From an uncultured Lachnospiraceae bacterium (GTDB lineage Bacteria; Bacillota; Clostridia; Lachnospirales; Lachnospiraceae): a stretch of DNA of 64,000 nt. The notes beneath the pieces were generated by a model, which was given only the letters and a program-made list of their open reading frames with translations, was not told the origin of the DNA and ran no database searches. Positions 24,759-31,771 of the stretch are shown here, one piece after another. Each line of letters starts with the position of its first letter. Within the stretch, counting starts at the first letter, position 1. A program made the translations under genes and the position numbers. Location: positions 1 to 64,000 of the forward strand of contig CAMOZY010000006.1 of NCBI GenBank assembly GCA_946631295.1, read 5' to 3'.

Positions 24759-24790
24759 AAAACGTCTGTCGAAACGGCAGACGTTTTTTG
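24759..24790 (+). terminator. Terminator of the phosphohexomutase gene
   Basis: AACGTCTGTC / GGCAGACGTT stem (24761-24770 with 24775-24784) followed by TTTTG. Confidence 0.9.
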
Positions 24791-24811
24791 TTTTCAAAAA
24801 ATTGTTCCGTT

Positions 24812-24831
24812 TTAAGGTTCAGTTAAGGTTC
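24812..24831 (+). promoter_or_regulatory. Direct-repeat response-regulator box
   Basis: TTAAGGTTC occurs at 24812-24820 and again at 24823-24831, 11 bases apart, one helical turn. This is the layout bound by OmpR/PmrA-type regulators (compare the PmrA box YTTAAG-N5-YTTAAG). It covers the position of a -35 box that is otherwise poor. The matching regulator is encoded in the same operon at 27632. Confidence 0.75.
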
Positions 24832-24837
24832 GCTTTT

Positions 24838-24843
24838 TATACT
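24838..24843 (+). promoter_or_regulatory. -10 box of the VTC cassette promoter
   Basis: TATACT, 6 bases after the second TTAAGGTTC repeat and 26 bases before the start codon. The 17-base-upstream hexamer (AGGTTC) is a bad -35, consistent with an activator-dependent promoter. Confidence 0.6.
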
Positions 24844-24868
24844 GACATCAGAAACGGAGGACAGATAT

Positions 24869-25597
24869 ATGAGTTACCAGACAGTATTTAAAAGATATGA
24901 GATCAAATACCTGCTTGATGACAGACAGAGAGATGCTCTCATGAATGAGATGGATGGCAGGATGAAGATAGACGGATTCGGTCACACTATCATTCGGAAT
25001 ATATATTTTGACACAGATAATTACAGACTTATAAGAACATCTCTGGATAAGCCGGTATATAAGGAAAAACTAAGGATCAGGAGTTATTCACAGGTAAAAG
25101 GCAATGAAGAGGTTTTTGTGGAACTAAAGAAAAAATACGAATCGGTTGTCTATAAAAGAAGGATAGCTCTTCCGGAAAATCTGGCAATGGAATGGCTTGC
25201 GGAAGGCGAAAAGCAGTCGGGAGGATCACAGATTGAAAATGAGATAGAGTACTTCAGGAATTTCTACGAAGGACTTCAGCCGAAAGTATTTCTGTCATAC
25301 GAAAGGGAAGCGTTCTATCCTCTGGATGATTCCGATACAAGGATCACACTTGATTCAAATATCATCGGAAGAAGCAGCGGGCTTTCACTCAGACAGGGGA
25401 TTTACGGAACACCGATCTTGGAAAGCGGAATGAATATCCTGGAAGTAAAGGTAAGCTCATCACTACCGATGTGGCTTATAAGCTTTCTGAGAGAGAATGA
25501 TATTGATAAGACTTCTTTTTCCAAATACGGAATGTACTACACGGACAATTTAGTTGAAAACTCAAACAATATGAAACGGAGGTTAAGATATGCTTAA
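24869..25597 (+). CDS. VTC-domain protein (polyphosphate-polymerase fold)
   Basis: 242 residues. Sequence carries the basic residues lining the VTC tunnel: KRYEIKY (residues 8-14), KLRIRSY, FVELKKKY, YKRR, LSYERE, RITLDSNI, and ILEVKV. In yeast Vtc4 this domain makes polyphosphate from ATP; in bacteria the activity of stand-alone VTC proteins is largely untested. No transmembrane helix is present, so it is presumably cytosolic and paired with the next gene, a membrane protein it overlaps by 8 bases. CGGAGG ribosome site before ATG 24869. First gene of a five-gene cassette. Confidence 0.88.
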   Translation: MSYQTVFKRYEIKYLLDDRQRDALMNEMDGRMKIDGFGHTIIRNIYFDTDNYRLIRTSLDKPVYKEKLRIRSYSQVKGNEEVFVELKKKYESVVYKRRIALPENLAMEWLAEGEKQSGGSQIENEIEYFRNFYEGLQPKVFLSYEREAFYPLDDSDTRITLDSNIIGRSSGLSLRQGIYGTPILESGMNILEVKVSSSLPMWLISFLRENDIDKTSFSKYGMYYTDNLVENSNNMKRRLRYA

Positions 25598-26279
25598 TAC
25601 GATCATTAGTTCAATAGTAGGAAATGCAGATATTTCAATAATACAATTCATAGTCCCTATTCTTTCTGCTCTGATACTTGGATTTATTCTGGCAAGGATG
25701 AGTATGGGAGATAACGGATCAAGCAAGGGATTTATCGTTACACTGGCACTTCTTCCCGCAATAGTATGCGTGGTTATAATGGCAGTTAACGGAAATATCG
25801 GAGCAGGAGTCGCTGTGGCCGGAGCATTCAGTCTTGTAAGATTCAGATCTGCCCAGGGAACGGCCAGAGAGATAGCAAATCTTTTTATGGCAATGACTAT
25901 CGGACTTCTCACAGGAATGGGTTATGTATTTTATGCTCTTATATTCGAACTGATCATGATAGCGGTGACGGTGCTTTACAGGGCAATGGATCTTGGGAGT
26001 GATAAAAAGGTTGAACTGACAAGAAGCCTCAGAATAACAATACCCGAGAATCTGGATTATACGGGAGTATTTGACGAGATATTCGAGGAGTTTACTACTG
26101 AACATTCACTCCTTTCAGCTAAGACTTCAAATATGGGTTCCATGTTTAAACTGGATTATGATGTGGTTCTCAAATCCGCTGATTGTGAAAAGAAGTTTAT
26201 CGATAAGCTTAGATGCAGGAATGGAAACCTTGAGATAGCGGTTTCGTCGTTGAAACGACATGAAGCAGCAGAACTTTAA
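25590..26279 (+). CDS. DUF4956 membrane protein
   Basis: 229 residues with four to five helices in the first 135 residues (about 15-35, 48-67, 70-85, 103-130), containing the family's conserved GAFSLVRFRSAQGTAREIANLF, then a cytoplasmic domain of about 90 residues with an alpha-beta ferredoxin-like feel. DUF4956 genes are very often next to VTC-domain genes; by analogy with the yeast VTC complex I infer that it passes or anchors the product of the VTC protein at the membrane. Overlaps the VTC gene end by 8 bases, GGAGG inside that gene, so coupled translation. Confidence 0.88.
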   Translation: MLNTIISSIVGNADISIIQFIVPILSALILGFILARMSMGDNGSSKGFIVTLALLPAIVCVVIMAVNGNIGAGVAVAGAFSLVRFRSAQGTAREIANLFMAMTIGLLTGMGYVFYALIFELIMIAVTVLYRAMDLGSDKKVELTRSLRITIPENLDYTGVFDEIFEEFTTEHSLLSAKTSNMGSMFKLDYDVVLKSADCEKKFIDKLRCRNGNLEIAVSSLKRHEAAEL

Positions 26280-26315
26280 GTAAGTACATGGATTAATGTA
26301 AAGGAGATGATCATT

Positions 26316-27515
26316 ATGAAGAAAAAACATTTTATAAATATGATGATGATATCTATTGTAAGTGCAATGTTGGTAACCGGATGCAGCGCCTCCGGGGAAA
26401 ATATAAATATATTCGGGAATGCAACAGTAGAAGCTGCTGAAGCAGAAATGACAGACGATTCCATTTCGGGTCTAACATTAGCGGATGAGGTTACAGATGA
26501 TGAGATCGATTCAGCAGAGGTAATAGATCTTGATGGCAGGACCGGCACGTATACAATCACTGAAGGCGGTACGTATAGGCTTAAGGGATCTTCTGAAAAC
26601 TGCTCTGTAGTTATAGATGTTGATGACGATGAAGATGTGACTCTTATACTGGATAATGTCAGTCTAAACTGCAAGGAGTCCGCTCCTGTATATGTTGCCT
26701 CAGTCGGTACGGTCAATCTGGTCCTCGTTGGAGATTCCACATTAACTAATGGTGGCAGCTTTGAAGATGCTGAAGATGAAAAAACAGATGCGGTAATATA
26801 TTCGAAGAGTGATCTGGTGATTTCCGGAAACGGAAGTCTGACCATAACATCACCTGCAGGAAAAGGCATTGTATCTAAGGATAGTCTTTCTATATATGGC
26901 GGAGTACTGAATATCACGGCTTCCGATGATGGTATAAATGTGAATGATGAACTGGTTATCTCTGGAGGAACTTTTACGATAGAAGCTGTTGATGACGGAA
27001 TCCATGCTGATATGTCGATACAGATTGATGGAGGTACTATTGATATTAATGCTGCCGAGGGCTTTGAGGCTACAAGCATAGTCATTAACGAGGGTGATAT
27101 CAGCATAAATGCTTCGGATGACGGCATAAATGCAGCACAGAAGGTGGATGACATTGATGTCAGAGTAGAGATAAACGGCGGCAATATCACAATAGTAATG
27201 GGTCAGGGTGATACCGACGGTATTGATTCCAACGGTGACCTGATCATAAATGGTGGTATGATCAGTATTACAGGACAGTCGTCATGTGATTACGACGGAA
27301 AGGCTGAATTAAACGGAGGCACTCTGATAGTAAATGGTGAAGAGGTTGATGAGATACCCAATCAGTTTATGGGTGGAGCACCCGGTGGCATGGGTGGCTT
27401 TGGAGGAGGATTCCAGAGTGATGGCAGTTTTCCTGAACCGCCTGAAGGAGGCTTTGGCCAGGGCGGTGGATTTAACCAGAGTGGAGAATTTGGTCAGGGT
27501 GGAATGAGACCATGA
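26316..27515 (+). CDS. Cthe_2159-type beta-helix carbohydrate-binding lipoprotein
   Basis: 399 residues from ATG 26316 (AAGGAG at 26301-26306). Signal peptide with lipobox LVTGC, so lipid-anchored outside the cell. The body (about 60-340) is a repeating right-handed beta-helix with recurring SGG-T-x-I-x-A-DDGI and NGG-x-I units, matching the Cthe_2159 / DUF4353 carbohydrate-binding family, one member of which binds polygalacturonate. The tail is Gly/Met/Phe-rich (about 355-399). Shares its operon with VTC-DUF4956 and a two-component system. Binding of pectic or other acidic polymer is inference. Confidence 0.85.
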   Translation: MKKKHFINMMMISIVSAMLVTGCSASGENINIFGNATVEAAEAEMTDDSISGLTLADEVTDDEIDSAEVIDLDGRTGTYTITEGGTYRLKGSSENCSVVIDVDDDEDVTLILDNVSLNCKESAPVYVASVGTVNLVLVGDSTLTNGGSFEDAEDEKTDAVIYSKSDLVISGNGSLTITSPAGKGIVSKDSLSIYGGVLNITASDDGINVNDELVISGGTFTIEAVDDGIHADMSIQIDGGTIDINAAEGFEATSIVINEGDISINASDDGINAAQKVDDIDVRVEINGGNITIVMGQGDTDGIDSNGDLIINGGMISITGQSSCDYDGKAELNGGTLIVNGEEVDEIPNQFMGGAPGGMGGFGGGFQSDGSFPEPPEGGFGQGGGFNQSGEFGQGGMRP

Positions 27516-27631
27516 CATGATTAAAATATCTTACTAACAGCAGATGATTTATGAGATAATGAACAGGTAGAGCAGTGAAAATTTCATTGCTCTGCCTGAA
27601 TTGTTACTTTCCTGAAAGGAGCTGTGCCAAT

Positions 27632-28306
27632 ATGAGGGTACTTCTTGCGGAAGATGAAAAGTCAATGTCCAGAGCCCTGACCGCCATTCTTACCAAGAAT
27701 AATTATTCAGTTGATGCGGTTTACAACGGACGGGATGCACTGGATTATATAACCGGTGGGGATTATGATCTGGCAATCCTTGACGTAATGATGCCCGGAT
27801 TGGATGGATTCGAGGTACTTAAGCGTATCAGGGCAAAGGGTGTACAGATACCGGTAATGATGCTCACAGCAAAATCTCAGGTGGATGATAAGGTTGAAGG
27901 GCTTGATCTTGGTGCAAACGATTATCTTACCAAGCCTTTTGAAGGCAAAGAACTTCTTGCAAGGCTCCGGGCCATGACCAGGAAGAATACTCCGGCTGAA
28001 GGCAATGAACTGAAATACGGAAATATAACTCTTAACAGGGCCAGCTTTGATCTTTCATCGCCCACAGGCAGTGTGAAGCTGTCATCCAAGGAGTTTCAGA
28101 TTATGGAATATCTTATGTCAAATCCGCAGATGCTTATAACTACTGAAAGATTTTTTGATAAGATATGGGGATTGGATTTTGAGGGCGACAGCAACATTGT
28201 ATGGACAAATCTTTCATACCTTCGTAAGAAACTTATCCAGATAGGGGCCAATGTAAGGATCAAAGCCACAAGAAATGCAGGTTATAGTCTGGAAACTGAT
28301 GAATAG
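27632..28306 (+). CDS. OmpR-family response regulator
   Basis: 224 residues from ATG 27632 (AAAGGAG upstream). Receiver domain 1-115 with acidic pocket EDE (7-9), phospho-acceptor Asp51 in LAILDVMMPG, Thr and Lys in TAKS...LTKPF; winged-helix DNA-binding domain about 125-222 with the typical YLRKK and RNAGYSL ends. Activates or represses promoters as a head-to-tail dimer on direct repeats. The TTAAGGTTC pair at 24812-24831 ahead of its own operon is the obvious target. Next gene is its kinase, 22 bases on. Confidence 0.95.
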   Translation: MRVLLAEDEKSMSRALTAILTKNNYSVDAVYNGRDALDYITGGDYDLAILDVMMPGLDGFEVLKRIRAKGVQIPVMMLTAKSQVDDKVEGLDLGANDYLTKPFEGKELLARLRAMTRKNTPAEGNELKYGNITLNRASFDLSSPTGSVKLSSKEFQIMEYLMSNPQMLITTERFFDKIWGLDFEGDSNIVWTNLSYLRKKLIQIGANVRIKATRNAGYSLETDE

Positions 28307-28327
28307 TGGACATTATAAGAGCGGGAT

Positions 28328-29590
28328 ATGATCAGAAAACTTCGTTTAAAATTCATAATGACTTCATTTTTGTCCGCTATGGCAGTTCTTGTGGTGCTTG
28401 TAGGCGGAATCAATATCAGTAACTATCTTAATGTGGTCAAAGATTCCGACAAGGTATTGAGAATGCTTGCCGACAATGATGGGACATTTCCGGACAGAAT
28501 GACAAAGCCGGGAAATGAGGAACCTGTGCAGGCAAAACCACCGGAGGAGAGACGTGGAGAGAGGATAGATTCTCCCGAGATTGCGTATGAGACCAGATAT
28601 TTTACCGTAAGGTATGATTCTGACGGGAATGTAACTTCGGTTGATACAAAAAGGGTATCGGCAGTTTCAGAAGATATGGCGATTGAACTTGCAGGAAGAG
28701 TATCTGATGATGGAAATTCGGAGGGTTTTATCGGGGAATACAGATATCTGTGTAAGAGCTCCTCTGATGGAGAAAAGCTGGTCATATTCTGTGACAGAGG
28801 GGCGAGCCTGGCGAATTTCAGGAATTTCAGGAATAACAGTATAATACTGTCATTATTGACATTACTGGTTGTTGGAGTGTTCATTTATATTGTATCAGGA
28901 GTCGCTGTAAGGCCTGTTGCTGAGGCTTATGACAAGCAGAAGAGATTCATATCGGATGCGGGTCATGAAATCAAAACACCACTTGCAATAATTAAGGCTG
29001 ATGCAGAAGTTCTCGGAATGGAGACGGGAGAGGATAATGAATGGCTTTCGGATATTGCAAAACAAACTGACAGGCTGACCGAACTGACCAATGATCTTAT
29101 TACCCTGTCGAGAATGGAAGAGGGAAGCTCGGTTCTTGTCATGGAAGAAACAGACTTTTCTAAACTTGCTGCTGATGCAGTCGATTCCATAAAATCTCTC
29201 GCAATGATCAGGAACAGGATGTTTACTTCTGAAATAGAAGAAGGAGTCCACATAACATGCGACAGAAAGGCTGTTTATGAACTTATAAGTATCCTTCTTG
29301 ATAATGCAGTAAAATATTGTCCCGAAGAAAAACAGATAAGTTTCAGACTTTATACAAGTGGAAAACAGGCAGTCATAAAAGTTACGAATGATACGGAAGA
29401 CGTTATGGAAAAAGCAATGCTCGATCGTGTTTTTGACAGATTCTACAGAACGGATTCTTCCAGAAACTCAGAAACCGGAGGCTTTGGTATAGGGCTTTCT
29501 GTTGCACGTGCAATAGCAGAAGCACATCATGGACAGATTACAGTAACCTCTGAAGGTGACAGGAGTATTACTTTTACGGTGGTTATATAG
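28328..29590 (+). CDS. Sensor histidine kinase
   Basis: 420 residues. Two transmembrane helices (about 10-32 and 176-196) enclose an extracytoplasmic sensor domain of about 140 residues that I do not recognise. No clear HAMP domain, only a short linker. H-box SDAGHEIKTPL (His near 222), N-box LISILLDNAVKYC, G-boxes DRVFDRFYR and GGFGIGLSVA are all present, so the kinase is intact. Partner of the preceding OmpR-type regulator. As last gene of the VTC cassette it probably senses an envelope or extracellular cue that controls the cassette. Confidence 0.94.
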   Translation: MIRKLRLKFIMTSFLSAMAVLVVLVGGINISNYLNVVKDSDKVLRMLADNDGTFPDRMTKPGNEEPVQAKPPEERRGERIDSPEIAYETRYFTVRYDSDGNVTSVDTKRVSAVSEDMAIELAGRVSDDGNSEGFIGEYRYLCKSSSDGEKLVIFCDRGASLANFRNFRNNSIILSLLTLLVVGVFIYIVSGVAVRPVAEAYDKQKRFISDAGHEIKTPLAIIKADAEVLGMETGEDNEWLSDIAKQTDRLTELTNDLITLSRMEEGSSVLVMEETDFSKLAADAVDSIKSLAMIRNRMFTSEIEEGVHITCDRKAVYELISILLDNAVKYCPEEKQISFRLYTSGKQAVIKVTNDTEDVMEKAMLDRVFDRFYRTDSSRNSETGGFGIGLSVARAIAEAHHGQITVTSEGDRSITFTVVI

Positions 29591-29629: not shown

Positions 29630-31771
29630 TTACAGATTTCCCATTAGGAAATCCTTCAGTATCCCTACACTTTCACGGATACAGTTATTGGGAAGATAGA
29701 GAATTACTGAATGAGCGGGTATTCCGTAAATATCGGAGTATCCGCTTTTTCTTGCTATTGCGAGAGCTCTGAATATATGGAAGTTACTCGATACAATTCC
29801 GACACTGCTGTCAGTTAATTCCGGATAAAGCGTAGAACAAAACTGCAGGTTTTCGGAAGTGTTGGTCGACTTGTCTTCCATAAGGATCCTGCTTTCGTCA
29901 ATTCCCTTTGCTATCAGATAATCTCTCATGACTGAAGCTTCACTTGCAGGTTCATTCGAACCCTGTCCGCCTGATACTATAATGATAGTTTCGGGATTTT
30001 CTGCAGCATATCTGTATGCTTCATCAAGTCTGTATCTTGTTACTAATGCAGGACCTGAGGGCTTAACCTGTGAACCTAGAACAATGATATAATCGAGATT
30101 TTTAGCTGTGGTTTTTTTGAAGCCTGAAAAAACCATACACTGTGTTATCACGACATACAGGATGCCGAGAGCAATGATCACCGAGAAGATGATCTTTGCA
30201 GCTTTTGGCATCTGCTGTAACAGTCCCTTATAGTAAAGGAAGGATACCATTATAAGGAACAGTCCGCCTGCAATCCAGCAAAGGAAAAACTTTGATCCGG
30301 AGTTTGCGAGCATTACCGTTATTCCATACAGGATGCTGAGGACTGCAATAATGCAGAGTATCAGACAGAGATAGATCATTTTCTTTCCTTTCGGTTTATC
30401 GGTATTTTTTTTCGTCTTCAGACGAAGGAATATAATAAGGTATGTTACTGAGATGATTGAACTTATGCCCCATGAGATCGGGTATGAAGCCATGAGGACT
30501 GTCATTGAACCGTAATATCTGAATGCCGTGAATATCCACAGAATCCTTATTCCGCAGACTCCGAATACGCTTATCGCCATAGGGCCTGTCGCGTTTCCCA
30601 TTCCTCTTATCGCACCCGAACAGACTTCTATCATTATGAATGTGAAATAGAAGATTGCGAAGAACTTAAGCATATACAGAGCGATTCCAAGTACTGCCTC
30701 ATCTTCAGAAAAGAATCTGAGTACAAAAGGTCCTATTGTAAGAAGGCCTGCCTGGATCAGAAGTGTCTGTATGGTCTCATAGATTCCGCCGTTTATTATG
30801 CTCTTTTTAACTCTGGCCATGTTACCCTTGCCATAGTTTTGTGCGACGAAGGTTGATATGGTGATTCCCATAGACTGTGTGACCATCCAGTAGATCTGGT
30901 CTGTTTTGCCGGTTGCAACCCATGCAGCAACAGTGTCTGTTCCGAATCCGTTGACCGCTATCTGTATGATGAGATTGGATGCAGTATATGTGAGGGAGTG
31001 AACTGTTGAGGGAATGCCTATCATCAGTATCCTTTTAAGATAGAAGGAGTGGATCTTTATCATTTTCGGATACAGTCTGTAACAGTCGTTTGTTCTGATA
31101 AGGACATACAGAGTCAATACCGCACTCAGCGCCTGTGAAAGGATGGTTGCAAGTGCGACACCAAATACTCCAAGACCAAGTCCCAGAACAAGGATAAGGT
31201 CCAGTATGATATTTACGATTGAAGAGATTATCAGAAACAGAAGAGGGCGCTTTGAATCACCGATCGCTCTGAGAATACCGGCTCCCATGTTATAAACGAG
31301 ATTCGGTATCATGCCTGCCATGTAGATGCTCAGGTAGATGGTTGAATCATAAAGTGATTCGGGTGTGGTCTTCATGGCTTCGAGCATCATTCCTGCAGTG
31401 GGAATACCGGCTGCGGTTATGATGATACCAAGTATGATCGCAAATGCCATTCCGGTGTGTACGGATTTTGATACTTCTTCCTTTTTTCCTGCTCCGTAGT
31501 ACTGACCGATTATGACGGTTGCTCCGGATGAAAGCGAGGTAAGGCCTCCGACAAAGACATTGACTAATATGGCAGCTGAACCGCCTACTGCAGCCAGTGC
31601 TTCCTTTCCGACAAAACGTCCTACGATCACGGAATCGGCAGTGTTGTACAGGAGCTGGAAAAATGTGCCAAGCATCAGGGGAAGAAAGAATTTTATCATT
31701 TCCTTCCCAATATTTCCCTCGGTGATCGGATTGACCGGGTATGTGCTGTTTTTCTTTATTTCTGAATTCAC
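29630..31771 (-). CDS. MATE transporter fused to a DUF218 (SanA/YdcF-like) domain
   Basis: 713 residues, GTG start at 31771 with AAGAAGG 7 bases upstream. Residues about 1-455 are a complete 12-helix MATE family exporter (GTFFQLLYNTADSVIVGRFVG, VNGFGTDTVAAW, GAIRGMGNA). Then come three more helices (about 465-550), and from about 560 to the end a DUF218 domain (IIVLGSQVKPSGPALVTRYRLDEA, VSGGQG, STNTSENL). DUF218 proteins act at the envelope in peptidoglycan or polysaccharide handling, mechanism unclear. The continuous frame shows no stop or shift between them. MATE proteins are normally about 450 residues, so this is a true fusion in this sequence. Confidence 0.9.
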   Translation of the reverse strand: MNSEIKKNSTYPVNPITEGNIGKEMIKFFLPLMLGTFFQLLYNTADSVIVGRFVGKEALAAVGGSAAILVNVFVGGLTSLSSGATVIIGQYYGAGKKEEVSKSVHTGMAFAIILGIIITAAGIPTAGMMLEAMKTTPESLYDSTIYLSIYMAGMIPNLVYNMGAGILRAIGDSKRPLLFLIISSIVNIILDLILVLGLGLGVFGVALATILSQALSAVLTLYVLIRTNDCYRLYPKMIKIHSFYLKRILMIGIPSTVHSLTYTASNLIIQIAVNGFGTDTVAAWVATGKTDQIYWMVTQSMGITISTFVAQNYGKGNMARVKKSIINGGIYETIQTLLIQAGLLTIGPFVLRFFSEDEAVLGIALYMLKFFAIFYFTFIMIEVCSGAIRGMGNATGPMAISVFGVCGIRILWIFTAFRYYGSMTVLMASYPISWGISSIISVTYLIIFLRLKTKKNTDKPKGKKMIYLCLILCIIAVLSILYGITVMLANSGSKFFLCWIAGGLFLIMVSFLYYKGLLQQMPKAAKIIFSVIIALGILYVVITQCMVFSGFKKTTAKNLDYIIVLGSQVKPSGPALVTRYRLDEAYRYAAENPETIIIVSGGQGSNEPASEASVMRDYLIAKGIDESRILMEDKSTNTSENLQFCSTLYPELTDSSVGIVSSNFHIFRALAIARKSGYSDIYGIPAHSVILYLPNNCIRESVGILKDFLMGNL

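Follow-up and report, generated by a model that had tools for sequence, protein, structure and literature searches.

What does a VTC-domain protein do in a bacterium, and what is the role of the membrane protein, surface lipoprotein and two-component system encoded beside it? Bacterial VTC proteins are common, and our literature search turned up no tested function for them. We approached this question at a locus within 64,000 nucleotides (nt) of an uncultured Lachnospiraceae bacterium (contig CAMOZY010000006.1, positions 1 to 64,000, forward strand; hereafter the window). The assembled home genome comprises 2.54 Mb in 95 contigs. A preliminary description of the window had proposed that five genes at this site form an envelope polymer system. 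In our best reading, which we hold at a probability of about 0.5, the locus encodes a regulated, membrane-coupled polyphosphate polymerase that serves a surface lipoprotein. It comprises the following features:

24760 to 24790, + strand: hairpin followed by a T run, at the end of the upstream phosphoglucomutase gene (read from the sequence)
24812 to 24830, + strand: tandem operator TTAAGGTTCAGTTAAGGTT with an 11 base pair (bp) period, conserved before VTC in relatives
24838 to 24843, + strand: -10 box TATACT, 10 bp past the second TTAAG (read from the sequence)
24869 to 25597, + strand: VTC-domain protein with a Vtc4-like triphosphate tunnel fold, 242 amino acids (aa)
25590 to 26279, + strand: DUF4956 membrane protein, by profile comparison a distant MgtC relative, 229 aa
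26307 to 27515, + strand: Cthe_2159-family beta-helix lipoprotein with a lipobox-like LVTGC and a Gly-rich tail, 402 aa
27632 to 28306, + strand: OmpR-type response regulator, 224 aa (a longer frame starts at GTG 27575)
28328 to 29590, + strand: sensor histidine kinase with a short outer domain, 420 aa

The five genes form one operon. Their reading frames, taken from the list of open reading frames of the window, are all open and lie on the + strand between 24869 and 29590. VTC shares 8 nt with DUF4956, and the subsequent gaps measure 27, 116 and 21 nt, with start codons picked by rule and provided that ATG 27632, not GTG 27575, is the start of the regulator. Pfam assigned VTC (1.9e-38), DUF4956 (4.5e-15) and Cthe_2159 (4.3e-55) to the first three products, Response_reg and Trans_reg_C to the regulator, and HisKA and HATPase_c to the kinase. 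NCBIfam returned no match for the first three; its best model for the regulator was RppA (220.5 bits, below the cut-off of 250). The tight five-gene unit of the preliminary description is thus borne out. The dedicated promoter that it postulated is plausible, since a hairpin with T run, a tandem repeat and a TATACT box lie between the phosphoglucomutase gene and VTC.

To see how far this arrangement is conserved, we compared 134 VTC loci. VTC was present in 39 of 59 genomes, a figure that includes the home genome, with 55 genes in total. Besides the window, the 134 loci comprise 53 of the remaining 54 VTC genes of these genomes and 80 loci from named Clostridia records. Because the latter were chosen as the best of 576 confirmed loci by their match to a window-like alignment, the sample is biased to close relatives. 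It contains 133 distinct VTC proteins, and two loci (L058 and L101) look like one contig, having equal length and an identical regulator. The 54th gene (G005:C205), which stands outside the sample, is adjoined by DUF4956 and a kinase. Counts were made independently of the gene tables, in which antisense reading frames mask some genes.

DUF4956 was found within 6 kilobases (kb) of VTC in 131 of the 134 loci, and at the other three the sequence stops within 220 bp of VTC. In 130 of the 131 cases it lies on the same strand and 3' of VTC, in 119 at a distance of at most 60 nt. The view of DUF4956 as the usual partner of VTC therefore holds. Co-occurrence of the complete set in related genomes had been named beforehand as a test on which the proposal could fail: all five genes lie inside 6 kb at 58 of the 134 loci, 17 of which (one a duplicate) have the gene order of the window. 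A regulator and a kinase accompany VTC within 6 kb at 67 loci in three arrangements, namely upstream and divergent (27), upstream on the same strand (23) and downstream as in the window (17). From the 12 Trans_reg_C matches of the home genome we estimate that a gene there would have one of them within 6 kb by chance in about 6% of cases; other genomes may hold more. The linkage of VTC with DUF4956 and with the regulator-kinase pair is far above chance.

The pair itself is largely of one kind. In a FastTree phylogeny that used the home genome's other 11 regulators as outgroup, and that carries a long-branch warning, 63 of the 67 linked regulators formed a single clade with a support of 99. The remaining four (loci L032, L037, L040 and L073) fell among the outgroup. 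Kinase matches at E <= 1e-40 occurred in 23 of the 59 genomes. All 11 kinases with at least 60% identity, including that of the window, belong to a cassette, which in G010, G021 and G030 is split by contig ends. Further matches adjoin VTC in G001, G005, G016, G035, G037, G054 and G057; unlinked ones were found in G013, G032 (two) and G033, and partial ones in G026, G028 and G034. The motif E-(T/S)-R-(Y/F)-F recurs in many of the 32 kinases that were picked from the 67 for alignment.

A candidate target of the regulator lies directly before VTC. Positions 24811 to 24843 of the window read TTTAAG-N5-GTTAAG-N10-TATACT, the second repeat being one base off TTTAAG-N5-TTTAAG. Across the home genome TTAAGNTTNNNTTAAGGTT has its sole perfect match at 24812, and two other sites match with one mismatch. 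A direct repeat of period 11 (at least 8 of 9 positions) within 150 bp before VTC was seen in 54 of 132 upstream regions, two of the 134 having been dropped as too short. It occurred in 36 of 67 regions with a linked pair and in 18 of 65 without one, while control periods from 6 to 30 gave 0 to 7 per group and shuffled sequences 0 to 4. The strict form TT[AC]AG-N6-TT[AC]AG stands within 200 bp before VTC at 29 of the 134 loci (21 with a linked pair, 8 without). In all 29 of them TAnnnT begins exactly 10 bp after the operator, compared to at most 4 at any other distance between 4 and 19; 13 of the 29 (one a duplicate) come from the window's genus and are not independent. In the 59 genomes, TTAAGNTTNNNTTAAGRWT matched 48 times, against 3 times for the reversed pattern, and 13 of the matches precede a VTC match by no more than 80 bp. 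Both the gene linkage and this promoter geometry are well supported.

The geometry resembles that of the streptococcal CiaRH system. According to the available parts of PMC3091779, CiaR-activated promoters were sought with the pattern TTTAAG-N5-TTTAAG followed at distance ten by a -10 box; repeat and 10-bp distance agree with the window. In contrast, the recognition helix differs when compared by eye; our regulator tree was built without CiaR. G027, which has no match to VTC, carries one copy of the operator (L088:8150) between MatE and pta-like genes (identified by eye), which is the cassette site in relatives. The cassette may have been lost there as a block, or the operator may be older. 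Separately, at L038-L046, L068 and L075 the region upstream of VTC carries an 11-bp repeat of another kind, based on CACA (by eye), mostly at loci without a linked regulator; it is possibly the site of another regulator.

The third gene of the unit defines a slot for a partner outside the membrane. Downstream sequence of 3.5 kb or more was available at 115 loci, of which 89 carry Cthe_2159, 17 carry CotH (its identity confirmed by Pfam on three representatives) and 9 neither, so that an outside partner occupies one slot in 106 of 115 loci. The two were never found together at any of the 134 loci: Cthe_2159 and CotH replace each other. On the VTC tree, from which 19 loci without either partner were left out, the partner switches only twice. 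There are therefore two VTC lineages, each keeping its own outside partner. A loose lipobox pattern near the N-terminus was found in 82 of 95 Cthe_2159 proteins, and the window lipoprotein matches the solved family member 4peu at 8.2e-23. The excerpt of PMC8746771 at hand describes Cthe_2159 as a polysaccharide-lyase-like binder that needs calcium; calcium together with an anionic polymer would be the putative ligand of the lipoprotein. The 59 genomes hold 40 Cthe_2159 genes, counted after grouping match pieces by hand and leaving out three rows under the cut-off. Of these, 25 have VTC no more than 6 kb away, another 4 belong to cassettes that contig ends interrupt (G010, G021, G024 and G030), and 11 are located elsewhere. 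In G055 (L100:7435-10672) a Cthe_2159 gene adjoins a kinase of the cassette-kinase family (255-aa open frame), with no VTC or DUF4956 in that stretch.

Sets with CotH in this slot are known. As far as the consulted portion of PMC7112168 goes, cotH-PPP(VTC)-DUF4956 are accessory genes of Gram-positive Pel operons. The window shares with them VTC, DUF4956 and an outside partner gene, and is therefore a variant of a known set. It differs in having Cthe_2159 for CotH, a two-component pair and a CiaR-type operator, and no pel gene among the three flanking genes scanned. NELoc-2 of Clostridium perfringens is described in the accessible text of PMC2879425 and PMC11677781 as containing VTC genes, each followed by a gene of 222-226 aa annotated as tubulin/FtsZ and then by CotH, which is the window's order of VTC, small gene and outside partner. 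The gene annotated as tubulin/FtsZ is probably DUF4956. In those published descriptions, by which alone the locus was compared, neither Cthe_2159 nor a two-component pair appears. Our literature search brought up no set that combines Cthe_2159 with a regulator of its own.

The Pel connection raises the question of whether phosphate supplied by VTC and DUF4956 serves to modify or control an exopolysaccharide on which Cthe_2159 or CotH acts, a role of the kind that has been proposed around Pel operons. The lyase-like character of Cthe_2159 agrees with this, as do MBOAT-like acyltransferase genes (named by eye) that follow the CotH-type VTC loci L072, L076 and L079. However, we found no pel or other polysaccharide synthesis gene in the three flanking genes scanned (the genome at large was not searched for pel), and CotH had no match in the home genome. 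We therefore regard a polysaccharide module as unlikely.

More can be said about the membrane partner. Judged by its profile, DUF4956 is a distant relative of MgtC: hhalign aligned the DUF4956 and MgtC (PF02308) profiles over their whole length (198 columns, 97.9%, E 6e-13), and the narrower A5 profile of DUF4956 still gave 8.9e-6 over 150 columns, whereas nine control families gave 0.034 or worse. Alignment A4 was built from 78 of 81 sequences and A5 from 72 of 78. The MgtC profile matched one control, the membrane family c25, at 0.0055 over 18 columns and the other eight at 0.074 or worse. The homology spans the membrane part and the inner domain. The Pfam MgtC model matched 4 of 33 DUF4956 proteins (best 7.7e-6), and its matches to the VTC-adjoining proteins of G050, G044 and G019 were all below the cut-off. 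The window protein had no match to this model, and DUF4956 has a motif of its own with R84 and R86, which together with G78 and G105 are invariant in the aligned membrane helices. A likeness to BCCT (0.0006, below the cut-off) was set aside, as just 2 of 33 members show it.

The predicted DUF4956 structure (pLDDT 85.1, pTM 0.70) suggests a ferredoxin/ACT-like C-terminal domain, based on weak matches. It had no match at E <= 0.001 in PDB or BFVD, the alignments covering mainly this C-terminal part, and an MgtC structure was not among the matches listed, which in itself proves nothing. The literature search yielded no paper treating both MgtC and DUF4956. A DUF4956 gene of Bacteroides is included in an iron-response table in the part of PMC10434189 that was available.

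MgtC is regarded as sensing or adjusting cation, phosphate or adenosine triphosphate (ATP) balance at the membrane, and ACT/ferredoxin-like domains often occur in sensors. Both the homology and the inner domain would suit a homeostatic system without export, in which the polyphosphate made by VTC is a cytoplasmic store of phosphate or ATP, DUF4956 monitors or corrects the same balance as MgtC, and the lipoprotein is a separate surface output of the regulon. In agreement with the last point, a Cthe_2159 gene of G054 that is unlinked to VTC has its own operator (L089:8155-8173); the VTC locus of this genome carries another copy. An internal role, however, has no need for an outside partner that keeps to one slot, nor for a VTC tree that tracks this partner. 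We consider homeostasis without export rather unlikely.

The polymerase reading starts from the VTC protein. It scores 132.8 bits against the Pfam VTC model (cut-off 23) and has the equivalents of K200, R264, R266, K281, R361, E426 and K458 in the tunnel fold. Altogether 13 tunnel residues are kept compared to Vtc4, in line with the preliminary description, to which the basic tunnel residues looked intact. In the yeast VTC complex, as presented in the section of PMC9911596 that we could consult, Vtc4 is the polymerase, and Vtc1/3/4 form a channel whose basic residues draw the polyphosphate chain across the membrane. The window has the tunnel fold, its residues and a membrane partner in common with this complex. 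Unlike yeast, the window VTC is by Pfam a single VTC domain of 242 aa without SPX or transmembrane domain, and its membrane partner is the MgtC-like DUF4956. The home genome holds one VTC gene and one PPK1 gene; VTC as the genome's sole polyphosphate maker was rejected because PPK1 is also encoded.

In our preferred reading, the kinase-regulator pair most likely activates its own operon from the CiaR-type promoter, with the tandem TTAAG at the -35 position. VTC would make polyphosphate from ATP in the cytoplasm and DUF4956 would hold it at the membrane. DUF4956 may either conduct the growing chain outward, its invariant arginines acting like the basic residues reported for the yeast channel, or couple synthesis to membrane state, ATP or cations. 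The secreted Cthe_2159 lipoprotein would be the outside effector, in the place held by the CotH kinase in sister modules. Polymerase activity, docking and export are inferred.

Several points weigh against this reading or narrow it. Vtc2 and Vtc3, which are not known to be catalytic, fit this fold no worse than Vtc4, and in the alignments they too retain some of the residues; the intact tunnel is therefore weaker evidence than had been implied. VTC could also be a triphosphatase, or a subunit that binds polyphosphate but is catalytically silent. Yet the bacterial VTC profile fits Vtc4 best (7.8e-23, compared to 2.8e-13 for Vtc2 and 5.7e-10 and weaker for Vtc3), the N-terminal strand with K200 falls inside the profile match for Vtc4 only, and 21 residues are invariant across 40 diverse VTC proteins, which makes a protein without polymerase activity very unlikely. 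The operator is also not exclusive to the cassette. Of the 48 TTAAGNTTNNNTTAAGRWT matches, 35 do not lie before VTC. Tandem TTAAG repeats precede a DUF975-regulator-kinase set at L096:7470 and L097:8228; at L096 VTC-DUF4956 follows this set directly and the regulator is outside the clade, and L097 is without VTC. TTAAGATTTACTTAAGATT represents a second type of operator, present in 8 of the 59 genomes, for example at L085:1191-1209 (contig C8) before a lipoprotein gene whose product we take to be DUF3048-like. Other regulators therefore use similar sites, and we infer that the cassette regulator binds 24812 to 24830. Export is the weakest step.

A bolder version of the polymerase reading, which appears improbable to us, is that VTC and the MgtC-like DUF4956 form a modular polyphosphate synthase-translocase, switched on by the dedicated two-component system and CiaR-type promoter, that passes an energy-rich phosphate polymer through the membrane to a swappable surface effector. 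This would be either an extracytoplasmic CotH kinase, using polyphosphate as its phosphate donor in a place that lacks ATP, or a Cthe_2159 lipoprotein holding a calcium-polyphosphate layer. Should the polymer be exported, bacteria would have an equivalent of the yeast VTC channel, and extracytoplasmic kinases might draw their phosphate from it.

The preliminary interpretation is supported in part: the single unit with its own promoter, the Vtc4-like tunnel residues, the DUF4956 partner and the conserved co-occurrence stand, and a polyphosphate product, a polymer at the envelope, an acidic ligand of the lipoprotein and an envelope signal for the kinase are its conjectural part. Beyond the preliminary description, the analysis adds the DUF4956-MgtC relation, which ties DUF4956 to the MgtC superfamily, the operator geometry and the substitution of CotH for the lipoprotein at other loci. 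A candidate regulator and a precise operator are now assigned to a bacterial VTC system, and this two-component switch stays with the unit in many species. The module so defined can be induced, deleted and assayed, which makes the job of bacterial VTC proteins testable.

Downstream of the unit, convergent with it, the window encodes a MatE transporter that carries DUF218 as a fused C-terminal domain (29630 to 31771, - strand, 713 aa). In most cassettes of the same genus this gene lies upstream and is divergent.

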